Source: Blastococcus haudaquaticus (GTDB lineage: Bacteria > Actinomycetota > Actinomycetes > Mycobacteriales > Geodermatophilaceae). From it: a DNA stretch of 64,000 nucleotides. The stretch lies in the NCBI RefSeq assembly GCF_900230285.1, contig NZ_OCNK01000001.1, forward strand, positions 62,001-126,000, in the 5' to 3' direction. The notes below the pieces were generated by a model that was given only the letters and a program-made list of their open reading frames with translations, was not told where the DNA came from and searched no databases. Position 1 is the first letter of the stretch; every line of letters begins with the position of its first letter. Made by a program: the position numbers and the translations under genes. Positions 4,444 to 63,596 of this stretch are shown here, in pieces.

Positions 4444-4543
4444 GTCGTCCTCCTCGTGAACGGCACCGTCGTGGGAAGAGCGTCGGCCGGGGCGGTGGAC
4501 CATCCCACCACCCCGGCCGACGTGCGGCCCCGTCCCCTCCCCC

Positions 4544-4599
4544 GGCCCCCTGCAGGGTCCCGCGGCGAGCGCGCGAGTCGTGGGGGGCAGGGGGTCCTT
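4544..4599 (-). repeat. Palindromic dispersed repeat, type A copy
   Basis: Read on the minus strand this begins AAGGACCCCCTGCCCCCCAC and ends CCCTGCAGGGGGCC, closely matching the element at 59887-59942. The outer arms (GGACCCCCTGC / GCAGGGGGCC) can pair and the centre is a second CG-rich inverted repeat. It lies between glnB and glnD, directly behind a partial type B copy. Confidence 0.75.
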
Positions 4600-4602
4600 C
4601 AA

Positions 4603-4630
4603 CGAGGGATGAGGAGGACGGGGTCCTTAC
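4603..4630 (-). repeat. Partial type B copy of the AAGGACCCC repeat
   Basis: On the minus strand it starts one base after the glnB TGA and reads TAAGGACCCCGTCC, then CTCCTCATCCCTCG, the left half of the element seen whole at 20146-20202. The right half is replaced by the type A copy at 4544-4599, giving a chimeric element. Confidence 0.7.
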
Positions 4631-6315
<1,685 letters not shown>

Positions 6316-20145: not shown

Positions 20146-20202
20146 GGCCCCGTCCAGAGGCTCGTCCCGAGCTTGCGAGGGATGAGGGGGACGGGGTCCT
20201 TA
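20146..20202 (-). repeat. Palindromic dispersed repeat, complete type B copy
   Basis: Read on the minus strand it starts TAAGGACCCCGTCCCCCTC two bases after the recG TGA and ends GGACGGGGCC at the rsmD ATG. The ends are inverted repeats (GGACCCCGTCC / GGACGGGGCC); within them CTCATCCC pairs with GGGACGAG around CTCGCAAGCTCG. The whole 57 bases can fold as one long imperfect hairpin, possibly a terminator between recG and rsmD. Confidence 0.8.
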
Positions 20203-59333: not shown

Positions 59334-59888
59334 ATGTCCAGCCCCACCCCCGGATGGGACCAGCCCGGTTCCGACCCGAACCTTCCTTAGGGCGGTGCTC
59401 CGCAGGGCCAGCCCTGGGGTGCACCCCCGCCCCCGCCGCCCGCCCAGGGCTACGGCGCACCGGCGCCGGGCTGGTCCGGCGCTCCCGCGGGGTACGGCGC
59501 CGGCCAGCGGCCCGGCCAGGTGACCGCAGCCGCCGTCATCGGCATCGTCATCGGCGGACTGGGGGCCCTGTTCGGGCTCCTGGGCCTGTCGCTGGTCTTC
59601 GCCTTCAGCGCCGTGCTCGGCCTGCTGAGCCTGGTCTCCCTCGCCATCGCCGTGGTGGTCCTCATCGGCGGGATCCAGGTCCTCACCGGCAAGTCGCCGA
59701 AGCTGCTGCTCCTCGGCAGCTATGCCAGCCTGGCCATCACGGTGCTGTTCATGCTCTGGTCGGTGATCAGCGGCTACGGCTTCGTGGGCTCCAACCTGCT
59801 GAGCCTCGTGCTTCCGGCGCTGATCGTCTTCTTCCTGATGCAGCCGCAGTCCAAGCAGTACTTCGCGTCCCGTGGCCTGAGCTACTGA
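59334..59888 (+). pseudogene. Paralogous four-helix membrane protein interrupted by an in-frame TAG
   Basis: From the ATG at 59334 (GAGGAACC upstream) the frame encodes MSSPTPGWDQPGSDPNLP and then meets TAG at 59388-59390. The same frame continues open for 166 codons to a TGA at 59886-59888: a Gly/Pro/Ala-rich stretch, four transmembrane helices and a QPQSKQYFASRGLSY tail like that of the preceding gene. A CAG-to-TAG change would explain it. GTG at 59520 could restart translation of the membrane part (122 aa), but has no ribosome binding site. A TACACT -10-like box lies near 59280. Confidence 0.7.
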
Positions 59889-59942
59889 AAGGACCCCCTG
59901 CCCCCCACCGCTCGCAAGCTCGCGGCGGGCCCCTGCAGGGGG
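59887..59942 (+). repeat. Palindromic dispersed repeat, type A copy
   Basis: Begins AAAGGACCCCCTGCCCCCCA at the stop codon of the preceding gene and ends GGCCCCTGCAGGGGGCC. Outer arms GGACCCCCTGC / GCAGGGGGCC pair, with CCGC-TCGCAAGCTCG-CGG inside. Same type as 4544-4599, here in plus orientation, in line with the upstream plus-strand gene. Confidence 0.8.
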
Positions 59943-59950
59943 CCTGAAGC

Positions 59951-59989
59951 GACACGGCCCCCGCTGCATCACGCAGCGGGGGCCGTGTC
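59951..59989. terminator. Strong bidirectional terminator hairpin
   Basis: GACACGGCCCCCGCTGC-ATCAC-GCAGCGGGGGCCGTGTC is a perfect 17-bp stem between the convergent membrane-protein gene and ilvC, ending 11 bases before the ilvC stop. Confidence 0.85.
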
Positions 59990-59999
59990 GCGTCTCGGG

Positions 60000-61073
<1,074 letters not shown>

Positions 61074-61601
61074 TTAAGCGGAGCGCTCGACGGGGCGCAA
61101 GGTACCGGCGCCCGACATCGATCGAGGACCCCGGCCCAGGGCCACGGTCCCGGACTGCGCCATCTCCTTGATCCCCAGGGGGGCGAGGACGGCGAGCAGC
61201 GCCTGCAGCTTGTCCGGCGTACCGGTCGCCTCGAGGGTGACGGTGTCGGGGTTGACGTCGACCACCCGGGCGCGGAACAGCTCGGCGGTCTGGAGCACCT
61301 GGGTGCGCTCGGCCAGCGGCGCGCGCACCTTGACCAGCAGCAGCTCGCGCTGCACCGCGGCCCCGGAGTCCAGCTCGACGATCTTGATGATCTCGATCAG
61401 CTTGTTGAGCTGCTTGGTGATCTGCTCGAGCGGCTGGCTCTCGGCGTCGACGACGATCGTCATCCGGGACAGGTCGGGGTTCTCCGTCGGCCCGACGGCG
61501 AGCGACTCGATGTTGAAACCGCGGCGGCTGAACAGCGCCGAGACGCGGGCCAGGACACCGGACTTGTTCTCGACCAGCACGGAGAGCGTGTGGCGTGACA
61601 T
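61074..61601 (-). CDS. ilvN: Acetolactate synthase small (regulatory) subunit
   Basis: Valine-sensing subunit of acetohydroxyacid synthase. The 175-aa protein starts MSRHTLSVLVENKSGVLARVSALFSRRGFNIESLAVG, an ACT domain, followed by the second ferredoxin-like domain RELLLVKVRA through LAPLGIKEMAQSG. The ATG at 61601 was chosen with GGAAGGAAA upstream; GTG 61607 is an alternative. A dispersed repeat occupies the gap between ilvB and ilvN. Confidence 0.96.
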   Translation of the reverse strand: MSRHTLSVLVENKSGVLARVSALFSRRGFNIESLAVGPTENPDLSRMTIVVDAESQPLEQITKQLNKLIEIIKIVELDSGAAVQRELLLVKVRAPLAERTQVLQTAELFRARVVDVNPDTVTLEATGTPDKLQALLAVLAPLGIKEMAQSGTVALGRGPRSMSGAGTLRPVERSA

Positions 61602-61637
61602 GCGCACGTTTCCTTCCAAGGGGGGCGGACGACCGAT

Positions 61638-61694
61638 GGCCCCGTCCAGAGGCTCGCCCCGAGCGGAGCGAGGGGTGAGGGGGACGGGGTCCTT
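61638..61694 (-). repeat. Palindromic dispersed repeat, complete type B copy
   Basis: On the minus strand it reads AAGGACCCCGTCCCCCTCAC starting three bases after the ilvB TAG and ends CTCTGGACGGGGCC. The centre CCTCGCTCCGCTCGGGG replaces CTCGCAAGCTCG of the 20146 copy, with compensating changes that keep the hairpin. It sits 37 bases before the ilvN ATG. Confidence 0.8.
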
Positions 61695-61697
61695 CCG

Positions 61698-63596
61698 CTA
61701 TACCTGTCCGTCGCCGAAGACCGGTCGCAGACCGCGCGCGGCCAGGATGTCGTCGTTGCTGGCACCCGCGGCCACCATCGGCCACACCTGGGCGTCGTGA
61801 CCGACGACGAAGTCGATGACCACCGGGGCGTCGTTGATCGACATGGCCTTCTCGATGACCGCGTCGACGTCGTCCTTGCTCTCGCAGCGCAGGCCCACGC
61901 AGCCCAGCGCCTCGGCGAGCAGCACGAAGTCGGGGATGCGCACCGCCTTCGGGGTGCCGTCGGCGTTGCGGGCGTGCAGCTTCGTGTTGGAGTAGCGACC
62001 CTCGTAGAAGAGGGTCTGCCACTGCCGCACCATGCCGAGGTTGCCGTTGTTGATGACGGCGACCTTGACCGGGATCCCCTCCATCGCGCAGGTGGCGAGC
62101 TCCTGGTTGGTCATCTGGAAGCAGCCGTCGCCGTCGATCGCCCAGACGGTGGTGTCGGGACGGCCGTACTTGGCACCCATGGCCGCCGGCACGGCGTAGC
62201 CCATGGTGCCCAGGCCGCCGCTGTTGAGCCAGGTGCCCGGCTTCTCGTACTTGACGAACTGCGCGGCCCACATCTGGTGCTGGCCGACGCCCGCGGCGTA
62301 GATCGCGTCCGGCCCGGCGATGGCACCGAGGCGCTCGATCACGTACTGCGGGGACAGCGAGCCGTCCTCGGGCCAGTCGTAGCCCAGGGGGTAGCGCCGA
62401 CGCCACTCGTCCAGCTGTGCCCACCAGGCGCTCAGGTCGGGGGCCTCCCCCGCCCCGCGCTCGCTGCGGAGGATCTCGACCAGCTGGGCGATGGTCTCCT
62501 TGGCGTCGCCCACGATGGGGACGTCGGCCTTGCGGTTCTTGCCGATCTCGGCGGGGTCGATGTCGGCGTGCACCACGAGCGCGCCAGGAGCGAAGCTGGC
62601 GAGGTCGCCGGTCACCCGGTCGTCGAAGCGCGCACCGAGGGCGACGAGCAGGTCGGCCTTCTGCAGCGCGGTGACGGCGGTGACGTTGCCGTGCATGCCC
62701 GGCATGCCGAGGTTCTGCGGGTGGCTGTCGGGGAACGCGCCGCGGGCCATGAGGGTGGTCACGACCGGTGCGCCGGTCAGCTCGGCCAGCTCGGCCAGCT
62801 CGTCGGTGGCGCCGGCCTTGAGCACCCCGCCGCCGACGTAGAGGACCGGCCGGCGCGCGCCGGCGATCATCGCCGCCGCCTCGCGGACCTGCTTGCCGTG
62901 CGGCCGGGTGGTCGGCTTGTACCCGGGCAGGTCCAGCCGCGGCGGCCAGGAGAAGTCGGTGGTCGCCTGCAGCACGTCCTTGGGGATGTCCACGAGGACC
63001 GGGCCGGGCCGGCCGGTGCTGGCCAGGTGGAACGCCTCGGCGATGCGCTGCGGGATCTCGCGGGCGTCGGTGACCAGGAAGTTGTGCTTCGTCACCGGCA
63101 TCGTGATGCCGCGGATGTCGGCCTCCTGGAAGGCGTCGGTGCCGATCGCGGCGCTGGGCACCTGCCCGGTGATGGCGACGACGGGCACCGAGTCCATGTG
63201 CGCGTCCGCCAGCGGGGTGACCAGGTTGGTCGCCCCGGGGCCGGAGGTCGCCATGCAGACGCCGACCTTGCCGGTGGCCTGGGCGTAGCCGGTCGCGGCG
63301 TGCCCCGCGCCCTGCTCGTGGCGCACGAGCACGTGCCGCACCCGGGAGTCGAAGAGCGGGTCGTACGCCGGGAGGATCGCGCCGCCGGGGATGCCGAAGA
63401 TGACCTCGACGCCGACGGCCTCGAGCGAACGGACGAGGCTCTGCGCCCCGGTGATGCCGGTCGCCGGCTCGGCGGCGGCCTCGGCGATGGAACGGGCCGT
63501 CGTCTCGACACCGGTGAGGGCGGCGGCCGCCTCACGGGTGGCCGCATCGCGGGCGGTGTGGTCCCGGGACGCGTGCTCGCTCGGGGTGGTGGTCAT
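61698..63596 (-). CDS. ilvB: Acetolactate synthase large subunit
   Basis: ThDP-dependent catalytic subunit of acetohydroxyacid synthase. The 632-aa protein has an Ala/Glu-rich N-terminal extension of about 60 residues, then [35 protein letters not shown] (catalytic Glu), the FAD-binding middle domain, and the ThDP motif [16 protein letters not shown] with [13 protein letters not shown]. The ATG at 63596 has AGGAG nine bases upstream. It heads ilvB-ilvN-ilvC behind an attenuator. Confidence 0.97.

Follow-up and report, generated by a model that had tools for sequence, protein, structure and literature searches.

A REP-like palindromic repeat at gene ends in Geodermatophilaceae, probably a non-autonomous mobile element

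Background

What are the hairpins that follow the stop codons of several genes in this part of the Blastococcus haudaquaticus genome, and what put them there? The initial annotation of the window (the whole 64,000-nucleotide stretch that was analysed) described four related elements at gene ends, and proposed that they are either selected 3'-end structures, such as terminators or mRNA-stability elements, or small mobile elements that target 3' ends. The best described repeats with such a habit are the GTAG repetitive extragenic palindromes (REPs), small palindromes of 20-40 bp that lie mostly behind ORFs and often give the TAG stop (PMC3733652). Their tag (GTAG or GYRG) lies at one end and is found in >90% of the members of most families, and they are hypothesised to be moved by RAYT transposases (PMC3733652). 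The same source describes CGTC REPs, which are REP-like, have a CCA-type tail and are without a known dedicated transposase (PMC3733652). A literature search found no title or abstract opening describing the present repeat in Geodermatophilaceae, and on that search the repeat appears to be previously undescribed.

Results

Four elements in the window

A covariance model (CM R1) was built from 30 copies of the B. haudaquaticus genome (4.51 Mb, 11 contigs) and modelled on the strand opposite to gene sense. Related hairpin elements were verified by model and sequence at all four loci, and coordinates of the loci follow the CM R1 boundaries. Behind glnB, what had been annotated as one element at 4544-4630 is a composite: a complete type-2 element (4544..4599, minus strand, 75.1 bits) sits inside the loop of an outer, host type-1 element recognised from its sequence. 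The left half of this host (4603..4628, minus strand) begins 2 nt past the stop of glnB (P-II), and its right arm (4526..4543, minus strand) falls outside the earlier coordinates. A complete type-1 element (20146..20201, minus strand, 85.4 bits) lies between the recG stop (TGA plus two bases) and the start codon of the gene that follows, a Pfam Cons_hypoth95, rsmD-like gene. On the plus strand, a complete type-2 element (59889..59944, 81.4 bits) directly follows the TGA of ORF 59520-59888; its presence had been noted correctly, and its position, given as 59887-59942, is corrected here. The fourth, a complete type-1 element with a 3-nt loop variant (61638..61694, minus strand, 76.4 bits), starts 3 nt past the TAG of ilvB.

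A start 0-3 bases past the stop, as first described, applies to the outer glnB copy (2 nt, measured from the glnB ORF at 4631-4969), recG (2 nt), ORF 59520-59888 (0 nt) and ilvB (3 nt), but not to the inner glnB copy, which lies 31 nt from the stop because it is nested in the outer copy. Pfam confirmed the identities behind the names glnB, recG and ilvB as P-II, RecG and acetolactate synthase, and gave no match for the two plus-strand ORFs near 59 kb. At 59949-59991, between the 59889-59944 element and a convergent gene at 60000, there is a further, distinct inverted repeat, GCGACACGGCCCCCGCTGC...GCAGCGGGGGCCGTGTCGC, perhaps a native two-way terminator. Membership in a known RNA family was ruled out by Rfam: above the gathering score the window yielded three tRNAs only, and the six element loci searched at E<=1 gave one weak match, far below gathering.

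Sequence, fold and strand

Read in gene sense, the unit starts with AAGGACC, continues with a stem, an inner region around CTCGC-NN-GCTCG and the returning stem, and ends in GGCC. Its length was 56-59 nt in 48 of 54 pattern-found copies, and a minority bear the tail GTTCCAGCACGTCAC; the 15-nt tail was rejected as a part of every copy, being present in just 30/193 by regular expression. The architecture is that of a two-storey hairpin, two helices separated by an internal loop. On the structured strand the two helices covary and one wobble pair is conserved as G.T; a T close to the base is left unpaired, and the loop reads GAGC-NN-GCGA. The compensating stem changes that had been pointed out are borne out by strong covariation within and beyond the genome. 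Standard pairs made up 97.2% of the pair cells in the 30 own copies, with 49 double changes against 14.0 after shuffling; among 88 matches from other genomes, in an alignment fitted to the CM, 97.1% of 1561 cells were paired, with 189 double changes against 62.5, and sliding the partners lowered pairing to 40-63%.

The conserved wobble of the inner helix is G.T solely on the strand complementary to gene sense, and the position left unpaired close to the foot reads A in gene sense in 94% of 114 and 89% of 63 copies, counted with no filter on that letter. Over all pairs, 105 G.T and 13 A.C were counted on the complement of the upstream mRNA, in a CM alignment that, like the CM itself, is biased toward the modelled strand. 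With the conserved wobble excluded, 39 G.T stood against 13 A.C (p=4e-4, related copies treated as independent), and the bias was alike in after-stop copies (23 against 6) and in the others (20 against 6). A small CM-free test on 44 copies gave 12 G.T against 2 A.C (p=0.013, related copies again treated as independent), and the conserved pair was G.T in 35/44 of that set. The target of selection therefore seems to be the strand other than the upstream gene's mRNA. Since that strand is normally untranscribed in tandem gene contexts, in which 74/114 after-stop copies lie, the structured strand is likelier to act as single-stranded DNA. In four copies that were folded, the mRNA strand reached -26.6 to -32.7 kcal/mol and the opposite strand -35.4 to -39.9 kcal/mol.

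Copy number and taxonomic range

The CM search, with 150 candidates scored, gave at least 149 matches at E<=0.1 in the B. haudaquaticus genome, a few of which overlap one another. The motif AAGGACCCCGTCC occurs exactly 35 times in the 4.51 Mb and 64 times when up to one mismatch is allowed, against 16 for a reversed-pattern control, and a hairpin pattern gave 35 matches (a few overlapping) against 0 in its control. A contiguous 464 kb of the same genome held 26 copies at E<0.001, or 32 when the threshold was relaxed to E<=1, a density that would correspond to about 250 copies per genome.

Under stricter filters and with a limited number of candidates scored, matches were found in 23/25 Geodermatophilaceae genomes, own included, in 0/16 genomes from other families of the order and in 0/147 further genomes of the class; the repeat is family-restricted, found so far only in Geodermatophilaceae. 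Within the genus, strict-filter counts run from 1 match (G015) through 29 (G013) to more than 130, so that species differ about 100-fold. Most relatives of G015 have more than 80 matches; in other genera of the contrast set (G018, G020, G023) counts are 5 or 0, and G020 and G023 represent the zero-match genera of the family. The nearest named relative, Blastococcus mobilis, shares 94% RecG identity, which puts very recent insertions outside our view. Its 196 kb contig had 28 CM matches, with three overlapping pairs, and a 136 kb contig of B. litoris had 2.

Placement relative to genes

The unselected 464 kb (405 called genes, 90.5% coding) allowed position and orientation to be compared with random expectation. 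Nineteen of the 26 copies are oriented like the gene upstream of them; 18 lie at -3 to +3 nt of its stop, and the remaining one is the nested glnB copy. Six others are antisense between opposite-strand genes, one is otherwise placed, and 0/26 lie within a called gene. With randomly drawn intergenic strand-positions, the share expected between -3 and +4 nt of a stop in the same sense is 1.7%, rising to 4.0-6.9% once the flank motif described below is used as a weight. The placement reported by the initial annotation thus withstood the test for random positions and orientations in these 464 kb (18/26 against 2-7%). Its statement that orientation always follows the upstream gene fits the four loci, and in the 464 kb applies to 19/26.

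A wider set, partly picked at known copies or hot junctions, comprised 194 distinct copies from many species, drawn from 216 listed matches by removal of repeats. Left out before the 216 were 6/32 own rows with E>0.001, 2/35 and 5/87 that were overlapping or cut, and 8/83 that were the same copies in overlapping loci. Here 131/194 follow a stop in their own sense. Gene calls place 114 of them no more than 12 nt from it, 54 of these at TGA plus two bases; the other 17 are at rpmB, added separately as the gene caller missed that gene. Among the remaining 63, 18 abut an opposite gene's stop with their 3' side, and 1/194 lies inside a called gene.

Flanks, target and nesting

The left flank tends toward C-N-G-W-R-G in after-stop and other copies alike, with G at -4 in 71% and 73% respectively (138/194 overall against a 37% background). 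GTAG directly 5' of the element was seen in 12/194 copies against 0.21%, and GYRG at the element end in 21/194 against 3.3%; the tag is enriched, not conserved. By itself, the flank motif fails to explain the preference for stop codons. No target-site duplication was found in 193 copies, in which flank 3-mer matches over all offsets numbered 729 (732 expected), 4-mers 201 (215 expected) and 5-mers 63 (59 expected); the strongest single offset, with a z of 4.5, came from 3 copies, and across the 576 cells no offset was consistent. Copies nest inside the loops of other copies. In the stretches examined, no copy with an internal ORF, as an autonomous version would have, was found; there were nested, truncated or chance matches only.

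Filled and empty alleles

Orthologous gene ends are variably occupied. Filled alleles, scored by a regular expression that overlooks no fewer than two at recG (L120 and L142) and includes the doubtful fills L104 (recG) and L101, L115 and L145 (rpmB), made up 20/66 at recG, 20/61 at rpmB and 13/65 at coaD; the CM confirmed 17 at rpmB. At each of the three junctions the copies of different relatives belong to differing stem types. Many relatives have recG and rsmD overlapping (ATGA) or parted by a short spacer, as in B. mobilis, and copies at this junction sit directly 3' of the recG stop, parting genes that overlap in most relatives; one relative carries a reversed copy and several a second, in-loop copy. 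The window's recG site (20146-20201) is empty in B. mobilis and B. litoris. B. litoris also has no element at the 59889-59944 site and none at the ilvB stop, where B. mobilis carries a different copy. The two ilvB copies, 61638-61694 and G041:C63:72270-72328 of B. mobilis, differ in their outer stems and have in common the less common 3-nt loop, a pattern suggestive of an outer stem replaced or converted in place. At rpmB, the copies lie between the stop codon and the native terminator, which, judged by eye, is kept in the 15 of 17 CM-confirmed alleles whose sequence extends far enough.

Two allele pairs define the borders. Empty L123 reads TAGTCG/GCACGGG and filled L113 TAGTCG/AAGG...GTTCCA/GCACGGG, giving the unit AAGG...GTTCCA; empty L137 reads TGAGA/GAGGCC and filled L126 TGAGA/AAGG...GGGGGCC/GAAAAGCC, giving the unit AAGG...GGGGGCC. 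Neither pair has a duplicated target. The first pair may represent a clean loss rather than a gain, as L123 retains tail-like letters, and some 'empty' alleles may be losses. Around the coaD 3' end (L091-L159), several hairpin-free relatives have TGAGAC(G/C)TTCCGCAC, near the tail GTTCCAGCAC, and L140 reads AAGGGGCCGTTCC, resembling the element minus its hairpin; lost copies may quite often have left such remnants.

The element seems able to supply a stop codon, since at coaD the stop type differs between filled and empty alleles: TAG or TAA in 10/13 against 5/52 (Fisher 3.7e-6, related copies treated as independent). At rpmB no such difference in stop type was seen (p=0.54), and every recG stop was TGA, in filled and empty alleles alike, so that stop donation is supported at one locus alone.

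Synteny with B. mobilis and B. litoris was judged by eye. For seven of the 15 own copies compared, one of the two relatives also carries an element in the corresponding gene gap, often of another stem type or orientation; for eight no counterpart was seen, one of the eight being not assessable. Of 26 listed B. mobilis copies, 6 have a counterpart in the own genome. Some junctions are thus shared and others private, and recent private gain does not account for every copy. One B. mobilis sequence, L219:2722-2781, is a near-perfect palindrome in which an element's left half is joined to an inverted copy of itself, the product expected of fold-back template switching.

Search for a mobilising enzyme

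The Y1_Tnp domain (PF01797) of RAYT and IS200 transposases had no Pfam match in any of 76 family genomes, the own genome and 16 family relatives likewise giving none, while a control search detects it in E. coli. Resident RAYT/IS200 mobilisation was rejected on these grounds, and the mobilising enzyme is other than a Y1 transposase detectable by PF01797. Other candidates were also rejected. Reverse transcriptase (RVT_1) had no match in G002, G005, G008 and G010 despite 115-133 element matches there, IS110 transposase had none in the own genome, and the presence of either was unrelated to element copy number. Integron integrase was above cut-off in 0/27 genomes, and weaker hits, of the sort that general tyrosine recombinases give, occurred in all 27.

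Discussion

Comparison with known repeats

The present repeat shares with GTAG REPs a high copy number, an extragenic position mostly 3' of ORFs and stems with compensated changes (PMC3733652, PMC2817692), together with a 5' GWRG tag-like trend and a tag that can provide a stop codon (PMC3733652). It differs in its 56-59 nt with two helices, in its degenerate tag, in family genomes devoid of Y1 matches, in nesting within loops and in its confinement to a single actinobacterial family; the word 'actinobacteria' is absent from the main text of PMC3733652. Although extragenic location near ORF 3' ends and compensated stems are traits of the GTAG superfamily, the repeat departs from three of its defining features (tag, length and Y1 enzyme), and we therefore regard it as REP-like in its working, yet outside that superfamily. 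MITE-like repeats such as Correia/NEMIS, ERIC/RU-1, RUP, CIR and YPAL/RU-2 are likewise small, non-autonomous, palindromic and intergenic (PMC2229807), whereas our element is shorter, registered to stops and without TA ends or target duplication. CGTC REPs recall the long form, which has GTTCCA and ends in CGTCAC, but their tag is terminal, whereas here CGTC lies at +10 to +13 past GGCC in the tailed copies. Integron attC sites are structure-conserved, strand-asymmetric imperfect hairpins with an extrahelical base. Our element resembles them in keeping its fold while its sequence varies, in strand asymmetry and in the extrahelical base; it differs in that its genomes have no integron integrase above cut-off and no cassettes were seen.

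What placed the repeats at gene ends

The repeat is real and spread through the family, it is very probably mobile, and it lies in register with stop codons. Of the two possibilities first proposed, that of a small mobile element with 3' ends as its target is well supported by presence and absence at orthologous ends, nesting, family restriction and the 18/26 copies at stops. A selected RNA element, placed by selection so as to terminate transcription or shield mRNA from 3' exonucleases, would account for the position and orientation behind stop codons, and it is consistent with the strong covariation, with the stable fold of the mRNA strand and with the discussion of published REPs as RNA elements (PMC3733652). 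We nevertheless consider it unlikely, because the conserved structure lies on the strand opposite the upstream mRNA, with wobbles that favour that strand in after-stop and other copies alike. Nor does it agree with gene-end occupancy that varies between species, with a native rpmB terminator retained downstream, or with insertion between recG and rsmD. Flank composition shows no consensus T run behind the element, and in 59700-61800, which contains two of the four elements, neither of 2 terminator-like sites is at an element. Single copies may still have been co-opted as 3'-end elements.

The spread itself might be attributed to a true GTAG REP family whose RAYT was lost from the sequenced genomes or resides on unsampled plasmids or strains. 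The enriched GTAG and the G at -4 speak for such an origin, as does the habit of known families of adjoining ORF 3' ends, where their ends often give a TAG stop (PMC3733652). It is quite unlikely in view of a Y1 domain undetected in 76 family genomes, a length beyond 20-40 bp, a tag far under the >90% conservation of most GTAG families (PMC3733652), and match numbers that range so widely within one genus as to suggest activity inside it. Spread without any transposase, through replication template switching and gene conversion among palindromes, appears very unlikely. Template switching can yield compensated stem arms, which are seen in many types, and it would suit the B. mobilis palindrome (L219 near 2721, on both strands), the ilvB copies that share a loop variant over unlike outer stems, and the 7/15 own copies in shared gaps. 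Yet the G.T wobble, the unpaired T and the purine internal loop persist where repeated correction would tend to erase them, filled and empty junctions alternate among relatives, and species of the genus differ so steeply in matches.

We conclude that the repeats are probably a non-autonomous, REP-like mobile palindrome, and mobility as a single-stranded DNA hairpin is favoured because the wobble pairs mark the strand complementary to mRNA. This strand would fold as single-stranded DNA, be recognised by a trans-acting enzyme and be inserted beside a short target. Stops would be favoured in that TGA and TAG fit the target trend and the element end can restore a stop, and also in that selection would remove most other insertions. 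A more specific version, which we put forward tentatively, is that non-Y1 machinery reads the template-strand hairpin and targets the stop-codon position itself, gene ends serving as genome-wide safe harbours.

Conclusions

RAYT transposases explain GTAG REPs, and here a large REP-like family occurs without a detected Y1 enzyme, which implies either a second route by which such hairpins spread or an enzyme that escapes recognition. Sharp, testable constraints come from the stop-codon register, the switch of stops at coaD and the asymmetry between strands. Annotators of Geodermatophilaceae genomes face at least 100 such repeats between gene ends, and G015, G018, G020 and G023 offer a natural contrast set for the mobilising gene.
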